From Dehalococcoidia bacterium (GTDB taxonomy: Bacteria; Chloroflexota; Dehalococcoidia; UBA1151; UBA1328), in NCBI GenBank assembly GCA_030745955.1, contig JASLNQ010000022.1, positions 1 through 15,449 on the forward strand: a DNA stretch of 15,449 bases, read 5' to 3'. Position 1 is the first letter of the stretch; the number at the start of each line of letters is the position of its first letter. The translations under genes and the position numbers were made by a program. The notes under the pieces were generated by a model. The model saw only the letters and a list, made by a program, of their open reading frames with translations. It was not told the DNA's origin and ran no database searches. This document shows positions 7,889 through 15,449 of this stretch, in pieces.

Positions 7889-7978
7889 TGGCGGAGGGGA
7901 CAGGATTCGAACCTGCGTTGCCCTTACGGACAAACTTGTTTTCAAGACAAGCGCATTCAACCACTCTGCCACCCCTCC
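7889..7978 (-). tRNA. tRNA-Ser, anticodon UGA
   Basis: A 90-nt tRNA with encoded 3' CCA is read on the minus strand. The acceptor arm GGAGGGG pairs with CCCCTCC, the anticodon stem CTTGT/ACAAG encloses loop CTTGAAA with anticodon TGA, and the T arm contains GGTTCGAATCC. The variable arm is long (about 18 nt, GTCCGTAAGGGC), as in a class II serine tRNA. The minus-strand upstream region has a TACGAT element with TTGGCT 19 nt before it, a marginal promoter. No integrase and no second copy of the tRNA 3' end is seen in the window. Confidence 0.97.
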
Positions 7979-8415: not shown

Positions 8416-8480
8416 TCCGTGTGGGACCCGAGTCCGACCACTCTGCACCGGGGACTTCAGCGAACCCCGCCTGACAACTG

Positions 8481-8506
8481 ATTTCCCGACCGGAGCGGAG
8501 GGATCT
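8481..8506 (+). repeat. Palindromic repeat, class I, copy 1
   Basis: The sequence can fold as TCCC-GA-CCG-GAG-CGG-A-GGGA. This forward copy is identical over 26 bp to the reverse complement of the copy at 8759-8784. Confidence 0.85.
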
Positions 8507-8618
8507 GGGCGCCGTAACAATCCCCCGCCGCAAAACACCCGACCCTGCCGATCAATCCGAAACCGTCCCCGCGTCTCAGTCCACACCCTCCCCTCGACCT
8601 CCCTCCCGACCAGCACAC

Positions 8619-8758: not shown

Positions 8759-8784
8759 AGATCCCTCCGCTCCGGTCGGGAAAT
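8759..8784 (-). repeat. Palindromic repeat, class I, copy 2 (inverted)
   Basis: This is the exact reverse complement of 8481-8506, with the same TCCC/GGGA lower stem and CCG/CGG upper stem. It lies in the 3'-flanking region of mutM. Confidence 0.85.
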
Positions 8785-9712: not shown

Positions 9713-9768
9713 GGCAGGCTATTCTATGCCGACGCCGAAAAGTACCGTCATCTTGCCCTTATCGCGCA

Positions 9769-9799
9769 CCCCGTCATCTCGACCGAAGCGGAGAGATCT
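9769..9799 (+). repeat. Palindromic repeat, class I, GTCATCTC form, copy 3
   Basis: This 31-bp copy begins CCCCGTCATCTCGA and ends GAGAGATCT. The fold is ATCTC-GA-CCG-AAG-CGG-A-GAGAT. It nearly matches the copies at 10651-10681 and 10945-10975, which differ mainly in the first loop base. Confidence 0.85.
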
Positions 9800-9840
9800 G
9801 GTGTTCGCCTGTGCACGGCACACCCCAACGTCGATAACCC

Positions 9841-9868
9841 GAGATTCCTCCGCTCCGGTCGGAATGAG
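9841..9868 (-). repeat. Palindromic repeat, class I, copy 4 (inverted)
   Basis: On the minus strand it reads TTCC-GA-CCG-GAG-CGG-A-GGAA. The lower stem differs from other copies on both arms so that pairing is kept. Confidence 0.8.
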
Positions 9869-10582: not shown

Positions 10583-10650
10583 CGACACGCCGCTCGAGAA
10601 CCAGTCACGTTGATCGTAGGACAGCTGTGCGTGTGCCCGACTCGACAGCC

Positions 10651-10681
10651 CCCCGTCATCTCGACCGGAGCAGAGAGATCT
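10651..10681 (+). repeat. Palindromic repeat, class I, GTCATCTC form, copy 5
   Basis: This 31-bp copy differs from 9769-9799 only in the first loop base and by a G-to-A change that breaks one pair of the upper stem (CCG/CAG). Confidence 0.82.
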
Positions 10682-10724
10682 GAGGCCGACTTACCAGCAC
10701 CATCCACCCAAACGAACACAACCC

Positions 10725-10751
10725 GATTTCCCGACCGCAGCGGAGGGACCT
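10725..10751 (+). repeat. Palindromic repeat, class I, TTTCCC form, copy 6
   Basis: The fold is TCCC-GA-CCG-CAG-CGG-A-GGGA. It is like 8481-8506 with loop base C. Confidence 0.82.
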
Positions 10752-10829
10752 CACTGGAAAGACCCTGCCTGCCAGGAAGAATCTCCCCATGCACAACGTC
10801 GATTGCTATTCAACAACCGCTGATAATTG

Positions 10830-10855: not shown

Positions 10856-10944
10856 CACGTAAAACCACAGGTAACACCAGTCAAATATGCCATCGTGAGG
10901 CACTCGAAGGACGGCACGCACCCACAACCCGCACTGCACACTAC

Positions 10945-10975
10945 CCCCGTCATCTCGACCGTAGCGGAGAGATCT
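10945..10975 (+). repeat. Palindromic repeat, class I, GTCATCTC form, copy 7
   Basis: This 31-bp copy is identical to 9769-9799 except for T as the first loop base. Confidence 0.85.
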
Positions 10976-11026
10976 GAGGCTATCTTGCTCGCGCAGCCTG
11001 CCAGCGGAACCGAACCCCACACCCCG

Positions 11027-11100: not shown

Positions 11101-14007
11101 CTACCCCACCGAATCCATGTCGCCCCACGTCGGGCCCGTCTTCGCCTCAACCAGCAGGGGCACCGCCAGGTCCATCGCCGCCGGCATCATCGTTGTCACC
11201 ATCATCTGCATCTCCATCAGCTCACCCGGCGCAATCTCAAAAATCAGCTCGTCATGGACCTGGATCGACATCTTCGACTGCATCTTCTGCGCCCTGATCT
11301 CGTTTGAAATGTTGACCATCGCAATCTTGATCACATCGGCCGCTGTCCCCTGTATCGGCATATTCACCGAAACCCGCTCCGCCGCCGCCCGGTGCCCCGG
11401 ATGCCCCGCATTGATATCCGGCAGGTAACGCCTCCGCCCCGTGATCGTCTGCGCAAAGCCCGTATCGCGGGCGAACTGCTTCACCTCCTCGATAAAGCCC
11501 CGAATCCCCGGGTACTTGCCGAAATAGAGGTCGATGAACTCCTGCCCCTGCTGCCGCGTCAGGTCCGTCTGCCGCGCCACACCCACCGGGCCCAGACCGT
11601 AGATCACCCCGAAATTCAAAATCTTCGCGATCCTGCGCTGGTCGGACGTCACATCCTCCACGCCGTACATCGCCCGCGCCGTTGCGGCATGAATGTCCTC
11701 GCCGTTATGGAACGCCTGCAGCAGCCCCGGCTCCTGCGACATGTGCGCCAGGATCCGCAGTTCGATCTGCGAGTAGTCGGCAGCAAGGAACTGCCACCCG
11801 TTCTTCGCATCGGCAACGAAAGCCTTCCTCACCTTCCGGCCAAGCTCGGTGCGCACCGGGATGTTCTGCACATTCGGGTCGGTGCTTGAAAGCCTTCCCG
11901 TGGCCGACCCGACCTGGTTGAAGCTCGTGTGTACCCGCCCCGTCGACGGGTTAACCAGCTCGGGCAGCGCATCGACATACGTCGACTTCAGCTTCGTCAG
12001 CTCCCGGTACTTCAGCACCGCGTCGGCGACCTGGTACACACGCTCGTCAAGCCCGCTGGTCTCCCTGATCTTGTCGAGCGCGCTGGCGTCCATTGAATAG
12101 CCGGTCTTGGTCTTGCGGGTCTTCGGCGCACCCAGTTCGTCGATCAGCAGGTCGGCAACCTGCCGGTTCGACGCCAGGTTCAGTTCCCGGCCACCGATCA
12201 CCGCCGCTGCCGTCTGCTGAATAAGCTCGATATCCGCACCCAGCTGCTCCGACATCTCGGCCAGCGCCGACTTGTCGATCATCATGCCATTGCGCTGCAT
12301 CTCGATGATCACCGGCAGGAGCGGGAGCTCTATCTCCTCGTTCACCCGCCGGGCATTGTGCCTGTCGATTTCCAGTTCGAAATACTCTTTGAGCCGCCAA
12401 GTCAGATCGGCGTCGGCAGCCGCGTACGGACCCGCCTTTTCGATCGGCACCTCGGCCATCGTGATCTGTTTCCTGCCGACCCCGATCAACTCCTTGATCG
12501 GCGTCATTTCGACCTGGAACAGCTCGAGGGCCAGCTGTTTGAGCCCGATGGCCCGGCGACCGCACAGCGCAGCCGCGATCATCGTGTCGAAGCCAAGCCC
12601 CTTCACCTCGATCCCCGCCGTGCCGAGCACCATCATGTCGAAATTGGCGTTGTGCGCCGTCTTCCCGACCGACGCGTCCTCGAACAGCGGCCGCAGCGCC
12701 GCCAGGCCCTCGGCAAACGGCACCTGGTCGCCCTCGGTGTGACCCACCGCCACGTACCAGGCGTGCTCCGAGCGCACGGCAAATGAAAGGCCAACCAGCT
12801 CCGACGTCATCGGATCGAGCCCGGTGGTCTCCGTGTCGAACGCGAACTCGCCCCTGGCCCGCAACTCGTCGATCATCGCACCGAGACCCGCCATATCGGT
12901 CACGATCTCGTAGTCACCTGAAGGTGGCGGTGGACCGGCTACCTCTTCCAGTGCCTCAACCCCGGACAGCATCTCCACCTGGCCCGAAGCCGATACGGCG
13001 AAATCACCCGCTTCTTCGCCAGATTCACCCCCGGCTTTGCTCCCGGAACTTGAATCCGCCGTCGCCGTTCCAACCTCCGCAGCCATCACTGCGCTCTTTG
13101 GCAACCGGTTGGCCACCAATCGCAGTTCGTACTCCAGCAGCGTCTTCAAAACTGTTTCCCGATCGAACACCCCGAACCTCGAAGCCTCCAGGTCGAGCTC
13201 GACCGGCACGTCACGCACGATCGTCGTCAGCACCAACGCCTTCGCCGCAGTCTCACGGTGCTCATCGAGCAGGTTCATCGCCCGCTTGGCACCCCGCAGA
13301 CCCTCGATCTTCTCAACCTCCTCAAGCCGGCTGAACAGCGAATCGAAGTGCCCCAACTCGGTCAGCACAGCGCGGGCGGCCTTCTTGCCAACCCCCGGCA
13401 CGCCCGGGATGTTGTCGGACGAATCGCCCTCAAGCGCCTTGATCTCGGCCACAAACTCTGGCCCCAACCCGTCGTAGCGCGCTGCAACCGCCTCGGGATC
13501 GTAGATTCGCGCATTGCCGAAACCCGTGTACATCAACAGCGAAGTCTGCTCGTCCACCAGCTGCAGCTGATCAGCGTCCCCGGTCAGGATCAGCGTCTTC
13601 ATACCCTGTTCGGTCGCCTGTTTCGAGAGCGTGCCAATCAGGTCGTCGGCCTCGAACCCGTCGTACTCGAAAACGGGCACGCCCATCGGCCCGAGTATCT
13701 CTTTGACGATCGGGATCTGCTCGTGCAGGGCAGGGTCGACCTCCTGCCGCTGGGCCTTGTACTCCGGGAACATCTCCTTGCGGAAGGTCTTCGCCTTCGT
13801 GTCGAAAGTCACCGCGACATGAGTCGGCTTCTGCTCGCGCAGCACCTTCAGGAACATCGTCATGAACCCGCTCGCACCGGTCGTGTTCTGGCCTGACGCC
13901 GTGACCAGGTGGTCCCGAATTGCGAACCACGCCCTGAACACGATCGCGTGACCGTCTACGAGTAAGAAAAGTTGTTCGTCGGCGCCGGGGGGAGAGTCCG
14001 TGGTCAT
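11101..14007 (-). CDS. polA: DNA polymerase I with 5'-3' and 3'-5' exonuclease domains
   Basis: The 968-residue polymerase serves Okazaki-fragment processing and repair synthesis. The 5' nuclease (1-300) has Asp18, Asp69, EADD at 119-122, GDAD at 143-146 and EGDSSDNIPGVPGVGKK. The proofreading domain (about 365-545) is intact: DTET (Asp391, Glu393), HNANFD (Asp457) and YAAAD (Tyr528, Asp532). The polymerase domain has motif A DYSQIE (Asp744), the O-helix RRIAKILNFGVIYG (791-804) and motif C QVHDE (Asp919). A low-complexity Ala/Ser/Gly/Glu linker (about 305-365) joins the nuclease to the rest and explains the extra length compared with the 928-residue E. coli enzyme. The ATG at 14007 has a poor ribosome-binding site. 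A TATAAT box lies about 48 nt upstream. Confidence 0.98.
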   Translation of the reverse strand: MTTDSPPGADEQLFLLVDGHAIVFRAWFAIRDHLVTASGQNTTGASGFMTMFLKVLREQKPTHVAVTFDTKAKTFRKEMFPEYKAQRQEVDPALHEQIPIVKEILGPMGVPVFEYDGFEADDLIGTLSKQATEQGMKTLILTGDADQLQLVDEQTSLLMYTGFGNARIYDPEAVAARYDGLGPEFVAEIKALEGDSSDNIPGVPGVGKKAARAVLTELGHFDSLFSRLEEVEKIEGLRGAKRAMNLLDEHRETAAKALVLTTIVRDVPVELDLEASRFGVFDRETVLKTLLEYELRLVANRLPKSAVMAAEVGTATADSSSGSKAGGESGEEAGDFAVSASGQVEMLSGVEALEEVAGPPPPSGDYEIVTDMAGLGAMIDELRARGEFAFDTETTGLDPMTSELVGLSFAVRSEHAWYVAVGHTEGDQVPFAEGLAALRPLFEDASVGKTAHNANFDMMVLGTAGIEVKGLGFDTMIAAALCGRRAIGLKQLALELFQVEMTPIKELIGVGRKQITMAEVPIEKAGPYAAADADLTWRLKEYFELEIDRHNARRVNEEIELPLLPVIIEMQRNGMMIDKSALAEMSEQLGADIELIQQTAAAVIGGRELNLASNRQVADLLIDELGAPKTRKTKTGYSMDASALDKIRETSGLDERVYQVADAVLKYRELTKLKSTYVDALPELVNPSTGRVHTSFNQVGSATGRLSSTDPNVQNIPVRTELGRKVRKAFVADAKNGWQFLAADYSQIELRILAHMSQEPGLLQAFHNGEDIHAATARAMYGVEDVTSDQRRIAKILNFGVIYGLGPVGVARQTDLTRQQGQEFIDLYFGKYPGIRGFIEEVKQFARDTGFAQTITGRRRYLPDINAGHPGHRAAAERVSVNMPIQGTAADVIKIAMVNISNEIRAQKMQSKMSIQVHDELIFEIAPGELMEMQMMVTTMMPAAMDLAVPLLVEAKTGPTWGDMDSVG

Positions 14008-14054
14008 CTGGTCGGTTGTCCGGGTGAAATCGTGCCTGGGCGGGAGGTGTTCGG

Positions 14055-14060
14055 ATTATA
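14055..14060 (-). promoter_or_regulatory. Probable -10 element of polA
   Basis: A perfect TATAAT on the minus strand lies 47 nt before the polA ATG, about 40 nt from the -35 of the divergent padR promoter. The hexamer 17 nt upstream (CGATAT) is a poor -35, so only the -10 is claimed. Confidence 0.45.
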
Positions 14061-14099
14061 GCTTTCGGTCGCCCGCGATATCGACGCGGGGTTGTGCTG

Positions 14100-14128
14100 T
14101 TGACATACCTAGTCAAGCGATATATCGT
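14100..14128 (+). promoter_or_regulatory. Promoter of the padR-arsM operon
   Basis: A consensus TTGACA (14100-14105) is followed by 17 nt and TATCGT (14123-14128); TATATC two bases earlier is an alternative -10. It sits inside the large dyad at 14105-14140, so a bound dimer would block RNA polymerase. The leader to the padR ATG would be about 30 nt. Confidence 0.6.
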
Positions 14129-14140
14129 GTAGCTAGGTAT
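14105..14140. promoter_or_regulatory. Dyad operator candidate, probably for the PadR regulator
   Basis: The 36-bp dyad has outer arms ATACCTAG (14105-14112) and CTAGGTAT (14133-14140) and a palindromic centre CGATATATCG (14118-14127). 28 of 36 positions agree with the reverse complement. It covers the space between the -35 and -10 and the likely start site, immediately upstream of padR, as expected for an autorepressor. It is placed for padR rather than for divergent polA. Confidence 0.65.
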
Positions 14141-14162
14141 CAACCGGCCCGCTCCCGAAAAA

Positions 14163-14594
14163 ATGACAACGAACACAAAACCTGCCCCAAAACCCACCAA
14201 CGACCTGGCCGACGCCGCCTACTGGCAGGCGCTCAACCGCAAGAGCCTGTTGAGGTTTTTCACGCTGCACCAACTGAGTTCGAAGCCCATGCACGGCTAT
14301 GAGATAGGGACCCGCATAGCACTCTGCTGTGACACCCGGCCCACCGACGCCATGATCTACCCGATGCTCAGGGAACTCGAGACCGGCGGCTACGTCGAGC
14401 TCGAATCCGAAGTGATCAACGGGCGCAAGCGCAAGGTCTACTCGCTCTCCGAACGCGGGTTCGAGGCATATCGTGCCGCTGCCGACGCCTGGGCCGGAGT
14501 CCTGCCGCAAATTGAAATGGCGGTGAAGGAGGCGGGAGTAGAACCCCCCTGCTGCACCACTACTGTGATCGAAATCCACGCTCTTGGAGACTGA
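14163..14594 (+). CDS. PadR-family transcriptional regulator with two vicinal Cys pairs
   Basis: The 143-residue winged-helix regulator has a PadR core from about residue 27 (KSLLRFFTLHQLSSKPMHGYEIGTR, then MIYPMLRELETGGYVE and the GRKRKVYSLSERG wing) and a helix at 100-120 for dimerisation. Its first 26 residues are polar and Pro-rich. Cys55-Cys56 fall just before the recognition helix, where usual PadR proteins have no cysteines, and Cys130-Cys131 lie in the C-terminal tail. Vicinal thiols suit As(III) or another soft metal. The gene leads an operon ending in arsM, and its stop is four bases before the next start. No Shine-Dalgarno precedes its ATG (14163), so translation may depend on a short leader. 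PadR family sure; arsenic sensing inferred from cysteines and neighbours. Confidence 0.85.
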   Translation: MTTNTKPAPKPTNDLADAAYWQALNRKSLLRFFTLHQLSSKPMHGYEIGTRIALCCDTRPTDAMIYPMLRELETGGYVELESEVINGRKRKVYSLSERGFEAYRAAADAWAGVLPQIEMAVKEAGVEPPCCTTTVIEIHALGD

Positions 14595-14598
14595 GACA

Positions 14599-14775
14599 AT
14601 GGAATCAACCGAATCCACCAAACCCGCTAACGAGTCCTCATGCTGCGGCCCTTCAGGCTGTAGTTGCCAGTCATCTGGTGAGAAAGCCAAAGCCAGCGCC
14701 AGTCGCGCCTCTGCCTGCAATTGCGGCTGCGGCCGTGAATCGAGCACCGATAGCATCGACGACTGGTGCTGCTGA
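14599..14775 (+). CDS. 58-residue cysteine-rich peptide in the ars operon
   Basis: Nine cysteines in 58 residues (15, 16, 21, 23, 40, 42, 44, 57, 58) are arranged as SCCGPSGCSC, ACNCGCG and a terminal WCC. The linkers are Ser/Lys/Glu-rich and there is no membrane segment. I know no named family. The pattern resembles a small metallothionein or a metal chaperone. The ATG at 14599 is preceded by GGAG (14586-14589) inside the end of padR; a TTG at 14584 would overlap padR and is less likely. Tight spacing to padR and arsM downstream suggest arsenic or soft-metal binding. SCCGP is shared with the ArsM N-terminus down to identical codons. A modified-peptide precursor is an alternative, but no maturase is visible. 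Confidence 0.7.
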   Translation: MESTESTKPANESSCCGPSGCSCQSSGEKAKASASRASACNCGCGRESSTDSIDDWCC

Positions 14776-14786
14776 ACCCGGATCTG

Positions 14787-14832
14787 CCCGGCAGTCGAGG
14801 ACGAGACCCGCGATAATGAATCGACTGCCGGG
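14787..14832 (+). repeat. Strong stem-loop between the Cys-rich gene and arsM
   Basis: A perfect 12-bp inverted repeat is formed by CCCGGCAGTCGA (14787-14798) and TCGACTGCCGGG (14821-14832), with a 22-nt loop. It follows the small gene's stop by 11 nt. No T-run follows, so it is not a classical terminator. It may be an attenuator, an mRNA-stabilising hairpin, or a regulator site. Confidence 0.75.
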
Positions 14833-14872
14833 TGACCGGTCACCTTATTTGACTACAGGGTGATTGACACCC
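14831..14872. promoter_or_regulatory. Two further palindromes upstream of arsM
   Basis: GGTGACCGGTCACC (14831-14844) is a perfect 14-bp palindrome that overlaps the end of the preceding stem by two bases. GGGTG-ATTGA-CACCC (14858-14872) follows. They could be alternative RNA folds or a second operator; no -10 box was found here. Confidence 0.45.
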
Positions 14873-14892
14873 GGCGAATTGGAGACTGAACG

Positions 14893-15449
14893 ATGAGCGA
14901 CACAAATCCTCTCGGCACACTGACCCCTTCCCAGGCGGACGCGTCATGCTGCGGCCCCGACGCCTGCTGCGGCGATGACGAAACGGCCGAGATCACCCAC
15001 GCCCAGCTCGACAGCATCACGGCTGCCGTCCAGCACCGCTACGGCAACCTGGCCGAAAACGCTGCCGAAAGGGCGGCAGACCCCACGCGGCAGGGCGCTG
15101 CCGACACCTTCTACACCGACGACCAGCGGTCGGCCCTCCCCGACGAGGCCGCCGGGGCATCGGCAGGCTGCGGAAACCCCGTAGGCATCGCCGACGCTAA
15201 ACCCGGCGAGACCGTTCTCGACCTGGGTTCGGGAGGCGGCATCGACTGCTTCCTGGCCGCCAAAGAGGTCGGTGAAAACGGCTCCGTGATCGGGATCGAC
15301 ATGACCCCCCGCATGATCGAGCTGGCGCAGAAGAACGCCTCGAGCCTTGAGACCACGAACGTCGTCTTCAAGCTCGGCCACATCGAGTCGATCCCGCAGC
15401 CCGACAACACGGTCGACCTCGTCATTTCCAACTGCGTGATCGCACTTTC
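14893..15449 (+). CDS. arsM: ArsM-type arsenite methyltransferase with Cys-rich N-terminus (3' end cut)
   Basis: The first 185 residues of a SAM-dependent arsenite methyltransferase are present. The SAM motif is VLDLGSGGGIDCF (108-120), with VIGIDMTPRMIELA (132-145) and DLVISNCVIAL at the end. Cys93 in GCGNP and Cys181 in SNCV correspond to conserved As(III)-binding cysteines of the family; the third would lie beyond the window. HRYG (48-51) marks the usual N-terminal region, so about the first 45 residues are an extension that carries SCCGPDACCGDD (Cys19, 20, 25, 26). The ATG at 14893 has GGAG eight bases upstream. It is the third gene of the padR operon. Family sure; role of the extension unknown. 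Confidence 0.93.
   Translation, partial: MSDTNPLGTLTPSQADASCCGPDACCGDDETAEITHAQLDSITAAVQHRYGNLAENAAERAADPTRQGAADTFYTDDQRSALPDEAAGASAGCGNPVGIADAKPGETVLDLGSGGGIDCFLAAKEVGENGSVIGIDMTPRMIELAQKNASSLETTNVVFKLGHIESIPQPDNTVDLVISNCVIAL

Follow-up and report, generated by a model that had tools for sequence, protein, structure and literature searches.

The ArsD metallochaperone is a small protein with Cys pairs that is found in ars operons. Small Cys-rich proteins are also known as bacterial metallothioneins, whose family in Pfam is presumably PF02069. Polycysteine leader ORFs are short, carry their Cys codons at the end and lie upstream of an operon gene; those of mycobacteria are said, by the title of a 2020 report by Canestrari et al., to be cysteine-responsive attenuators. 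According to a review of bacterial metallothioneins, SmtA has 56 aa with eight metal-binding Cys, and almost all studied bacterial metallothioneins carry at least one His (PMC12193353). In the ars1 operon of Bacillus sp. CDB3, the amount of full-operon transcript is reduced by a hairpin that lies between arsC and arsD (PMC4562236).

These systems are compared here with a locus from a Dehalococcoidia bacterium (GenBank assembly GCA_030745955.1, contig JASLNQ010000022.1), in which a short Cys-rich ORF lies between padR, encoding a PadR-family regulator, and arsM. The whole 15,449-nt stretch of DNA that was analysed is referred to as the window, and its features are compiled in Table 1. Judged from the sequence, the ORF possibly encodes a young, lineage-specific As(III)-binding thiol peptide of the padR-arsM operon, a reading which we adopt tentatively.

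Table 1. Positions of the features discussed, numbered from the first base of the window.
Feature	Position	Strand	Description
tRNA-Ser (anticodon tga)	7889-7978	-	
Promoter-like site of padR	14100..14140	+	TTGACA-17-TATCGT; consensus match only
padR, PadR-family regulator	14163..14594	+	Pfam PF03551, E 2.9e-12
Junction copy 1, TTGGAGACTGA	14584..14594	+	padR end and Shine-Dalgarno; serves arsM in relatives
Nine-cysteine ORF, 58 aa	14599..14775	+	ATG 14599 to TGA; clusters CCGPSGCSC, CNCGCG and terminal WCC
Hairpin A:B (predicted)	14786..14833	+	13 bp, 22-nt loop; begins 10 nt past the peptide stop
Hairpin B:C (predicted)	14826..14876	+	9 + 10 bp; ends 4 nt 5' of the arsM GGAG
Junction copy 2	14860..14889	+	final 30 nt of padR in diverged form; carries the arsM Shine-Dalgarno
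arsM, cut by the window end	14893..15449	+	starts with ATG; N-terminal tail SCCGPDACCGDD

The nine-cysteine reading frame and its neighbours

The ORF comprises 58 codons and a TGA stop and encodes nine Cys in three clusters, 14 Ser and no His. The original prediction of a Cys-dense ORF of 58 residues between padR and arsM is exact in coordinates, length and Cys count. It had also claimed a good ribosome-binding site, tight spacing to padR and soluble character, which agrees with a GGAG at 14586-14589, 9 nt 5' of the ATG, a start four bases past the padR stop (14594), and an acidic, soluble composition with a pI of 4.55 and a GRAVY of -0.67. The mechanical ORF list opened the same frame at an upstream TTG (14584), which gives 63 aa. 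The cysteine content exceeds chance: the ORF has the highest Cys fraction among the 66 window ORFs of 45-90 aa, 9 Cys in 63 residues were reached by none of 6,296 ORFs from second-order Markov simulations, and at least 12% Cys was present in 3 of 814 ORFs from 194 kb of other fetched loci, a comparison set from which loci L014-L025 were left out. Codon use is weakly gene-like and lends little support, as its synonymous codon score of -0.074 per codon is near the bottom of the range for real genes of the window, whose 58-codon chunks span -0.10 to 0.24; padR overall scores -0.029. In an earlier version of this test, none of 5,000 gene-like draws was as low as the ORF, and padR was low there too.

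Upstream, the PadR of the window has two CC pairs, one at residues 55-56 and the other at 130-131, and among 69 listed PadR sequences, several of which are fragments, the central CC motif occurs in 49 and the C-terminal one in 44; the regulator may sense As(III). Its promoter-like site is one of three such sites within 14000-15000 (shuffle mean 0.5) and overlaps the inverted repeat ATACCTAG...CTAGGTAT, which could plausibly serve as the PadR operator.

Downstream, the arsM fragment has its best NCBIfam match to arsenite methyltransferase PRK11873 (E 4e-49), with 167.5 bits for a fragment against a cut-off of 263 bits for full-length proteins, and it matches methyltransferase domains in Pfam as well as ArsM sequences from the PDB. 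Since four of the five PDB alignments begin at residue 36-41 of the window's ArsM and the fifth at 91, its N-terminal tail lies outside the aligned part. All 29 ArsM compared, including that of the window, have 2-5 Cys before CGNP. In 20 of them (the window, L026-L030 and the 14 close loci) a Cys cluster precedes the first helix as an N-terminal tail, and the other nine have CC pairs farther inside. In a broader set, at least two Cys precede CGNP in 119 of the 120 ArsM listed of 177 matches. The tails may bind As(III). Within the 29, CCGP stands in the tail of the window's own ArsM only, with four more sequences carrying it farther inside, and CGCG is present in two tails; among the 120 listed, CCGP is again confined to the window's ArsM. 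A doubled N-terminal CCGDGCC module with eight Cys was observed in a 316-aa ArsM (P0151), the sole one of the 120 in which more than four Cys precede CGNP; additional thiol modules do thus arise here.

Elsewhere in the window, a dispersed 37-nt repeat occurs in five direct copies that are 62-100% identical to the reference (8475-8511, 9768-9804, 10650-10686, 10720-10756 and 10944-10980) and in inverted copies at 8759-8784 and 9839-9862. The ORFs listed over the tRNA-Ser are probably spurious.

Homologues, related loci and the origin of the insert

No Pfam or NCBIfam family matches the peptide at E<=1, and it was not found in a set of 5.8 billion proteins, a search from which distant relatives would escape because three shared 5-residue words are required. 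As the window's PadR (on 8 contigs) and ArsM are both contained in this protein set, gene callers probably passed over the ORF, and the absence of the peptide fits a missed gene and a sequence that is not a gene alike. A protein search of 393 genomes of the class gave matches in eight of them (E 0.003-0.007) and no convincing relative; from the reading frames at these places alone, the matches are judged to be chance. The DNA pattern for CCGPxGCxC matched once in the 393 genomes, antisense to apparent succinyl-CoA synthetase genes, compared with seven matches in six genomes for the reversed control. There was no match in the plasmid search, and none of 37 pattern stretches in viral contigs was a relative. 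The DNA of the insert matched short pieces only in 49 of 76 genomes of a family (E<=1, best E 0.013), which are likewise judged to be chance. Among the titles and abstracts retrieved from the open-access literature, none reports a small Cys-rich peptide beside arsM.

Related loci were obtained by a PadR scan of genome contigs, which yielded 13 loci, 11 of them from Chloroflexi/Dehalococcoidia with padR followed by arsM, among these Candidatus Lucifugimonas marina, which we take to be a SAR202 member. Within the family of one such locus, the PadR is present in 29 of 76 genomes. The nearest relatives of the window's PadR, P0002 and P0041, reach 82-83%. Once repeats were dropped, 28 distinct relative loci from SAR202-type Chloroflexi carried both genes; padR adjoins arsM in all 28, and in none of them is there space for a 58-aa ORF between the two. 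The 14 closest loci encode ArsM that are 74-82% identical to that of the window. Half of these 14 (L001-L004, L007, L008 and L043) have the arsM start 3-4 nt past the padR stop, with GGAG followed by the start codon, an initiation site which equals that of the peptide. In four (L005, L009, L010 and L011) arsM begins within padR, the overlap being 11 or 4 nt, and in L006, L033 and L042 the padR stop is lost or the frame disrupted, with arsM still adjoining. Among the 14 more distant loci, no candidate arsM start lies more than 83 nt past padR. No relative locus has room for the ORF, which was thus added in the lineage of the window.

The original prediction had taken a lack of homologues preserved near arsM as evidence against a thiol peptide, and such a lack is what the searches and the 28 loci revealed, so that there is no evidence of selection on the peptide. 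A thiol peptide is reasonable in an arsM operon, given the CC pairs of PadR and the Cys tails on the ArsM of close relatives, and if translated it might buffer As(III) or hand it to ArsM, as the original prediction had proposed.

Several further observations were made at the related loci. In L006 (1230-2513), padR lacks a stop at its usual end and PadR and ArsM form one frame of 427 aa; a similar read-through of the junction is found in P0166 and L042. In L011 (5066-5440) the PadR frame is disrupted and a TGA stands at the position of the first Cys of the relatives' C-terminal CC pair, which may reflect decay, sequence error or selenocysteine. A diverged second arsM-like stretch with 47-64% identity to the window's ArsM follows shortly past the first arsM in L001, L003, L004, L005, L010 and L043.

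In comparison with its relatives, the window contains an insert of about 295 bp between padR and arsM. The longest direct repeat in 14000-15449 joins the end of padR (14565-14594) to 14860-14889 with 70% identity, and it includes the perfect 11-mer TTGGAGACTGA, the second copy of which is located at 14879-14889. In the 19 nt upstream of this 11-mer, copy 2 matches the padR ends of seven relatives at 9-10 of 19 positions, which is equalled by 0.4-2.2% of the 19-mers of the window; farther upstream (30-60 nt) the match falls to 8-9 of 30, which is chance level. From the repeat and the match to the relatives' padR ends, the junction seems to have been duplicated, placing the peptide on the old arsM initiation site. 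Junction duplication is preferred over the possible insertion of a transposon-like element that duplicated an 11-bp target, since no inverted repeat is listed at either end of the insert and the copied stretch seems to continue upstream past the 11-mer. A simple tandem duplication of the first 260 nt of arsM was rejected, the best ungapped 40-nt match being 25, which was equalled by 4 of 60 control pairs.

The ORF and arsM share the exact 14-mer TCATGCTGCGGCCC, encoding SCCGP, which taken by itself would point to an origin of the ORF as a copy of the arsM start. The match between peptide and arsM was equalled by 49 of 2,000 codon shuffles, or 248 of 2,000 with a softer score, and the best local match to the window's own ArsM tail (SCCGP) by 30 of 2,000 free residue shuffles. 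Profile searches and alignments against the 14 ArsM tails did not separate the peptide from shuffles (102, 155 and 119 of 1,000), and in another run shuffles did as well in 79, 179 and 333 of 500, where 119 of 1,000 and 333 of 500 refer to alignment to the family's ArsM tails with Cys-preserving shuffles that kept the clusters. Homology of the peptide to the ArsM tails is therefore not statistically supported.

Predicted hairpins and competing explanations

The two hairpins predicted between the peptide stop and arsM, which the original prediction did not include, just as it did not include the copy of the padR end in this gap, share arm B and are mutually exclusive. They open the possibility that the ORF acts as a leader, in which translation of its Cys codons, ending in Trp-Cys-Cys-stop, would select the hairpin and so adjust arsM to the supply of cysteine or thiols, or to ribosome stalling. 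The folding z-scores of -4.98 for the A:B stretch (14784-14836) and -6.47 for the B:C stretch (14822-14880) argue for such a function; however, the choice of both stretches was made once the RNA had been folded, the z-score for the whole gap between peptide and arsM is -3.58, and on energy alone the B:C stretch ranks third among 770 59-nt windows. A:B contains the only perfect 12-nt inverted repeat of the window with a loop of 3-40 nt and is dominant in the predicted free RNA (0.98). Covering the RNA to 14790 would switch the fold, with A:B falling from 0.98 to 0.01 and B:C reaching 0.96, whereas a ribosome on the last Cys codons or the stop, assumed to cover 12 nt past the first base of the A-site codon and thus the RNA to 14779-14785, leaves A:B at a predicted 0.85-0.89. 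A leader function is consequently possible, but needs a few more bases of cover than assumed. In addition, predicted access to the arsM Shine-Dalgarno shifts only modestly (from 0.29 to 0.42-0.66), the one terminator-like match is not above shuffles (mean 0.8), and Rfam gives no family at gathering score, with a weak atpB match over the hairpins (19.2 of 37.4 bits). Although the mycobacterial polycysteine ORFs and the CDB3 hairpin offer parallels, we consider regulation by this leader unlikely. Far less credible still is a selenocysteine read-through, in which the peptide and ArsM would form one frame and yield a long ArsM with a Cys/Sec tail. Only three TGA (14773, 14833 and 14887) part the two, a hairpin follows the first of them, and NCBIfam models of ArsM selenoproteins match weakly; yet three recodings would be required, arsM is equipped with a GGAG and an ATG of its own, as it is in relatives, and the 22-nt loop is unlike that of bacterial SECIS elements, which have a small loop.

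A stronger competitor is that the ORF is a by-product of the rearrangement, an open frame left behind an inherited ribosome-binding site that may be translated and has no selected function. The absence of the peptide at 28 of 28 relative loci and from the homologue searches, the weak codon signal and the junction copy, which points to rearrangement, all agree with this explanation; the Cys content, unlike that of chance ORFs, and the intact reading frame speak against it, and we regard it as somewhat improbable. A young thiol peptide is favoured over a by-product, and this in turn over a leader ORF, although a thiol peptide and a leader are compatible and do not exclude each other. For the favoured thiol peptide, a rearrangement at the padR-arsM junction would have copied the padR end and the ribosome-binding site within it, so that a new reading frame came to occupy the place where arsM had once started. 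Its product would be a free-standing counterpart of the Cys tail on the ArsM of close relatives. Co-transcribed with its neighbours and translated upon induction of the operon, the peptide would use its Cys clusters to bind As(III) and either buffer it or offer it to ArsM. Both functions could be united in a self-contained arsenic/thiol control cassette, where the speed of peptide translation, set by cysteine supply or by thiols tied up by As(III), would pick the hairpin and gate ArsM, and the released peptide would hold As(III); this we consider doubtful at best.

If the peptide is made, it would represent a thiol peptide that has only recently arisen at an operon junction and would show how arsenic operons gain sequestering parts. 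The hairpin pair beside it offers a candidate RNA control of arsM that can be put to the test, in a group that is related to marine bacteria and mostly uncultured. If the peptide is not made, the locus would be a warning that a high Cys content and a good ribosome-binding site can make a short ORF look functional while it is confined to one lineage.

Comparison with known systems

The peptide resembles the bacterial metallothioneins SmtA/BmtA/PmtA and MymT in size, Cys number, CC/CxC motifs and the neighbouring regulator gene, and of the metallothionein-type traits it has small size, Cys richness and the motifs CC, CSC and CNCGC. However, it has no His, and neither Pfam nor NCBIfam gives a match at E<=1. 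The latter also separates it from ArsD, of which it has about half the size. In contrast to the polycysteine leaders, the ORF has a Shine-Dalgarno sequence and comes after padR, and the gene next to it downstream is arsM instead of sulphur genes. With the arsC-arsD attenuator in the ars1 operon of Bacillus sp. CDB3 the locus has in common strong hairpins within an ars operon (PMC4562236), whereas the window has two predicted exclusive hairpins after a Cys ORF and no clear terminator. With the tails of the SAR202-type ArsM (CCGDGCC, CCGDDCC and NCGCG), the peptide shares the position in the operon, the vicinal Cys clusters and the acidic setting; it differs from them in being free-standing and in carrying nine Cys in three clusters.
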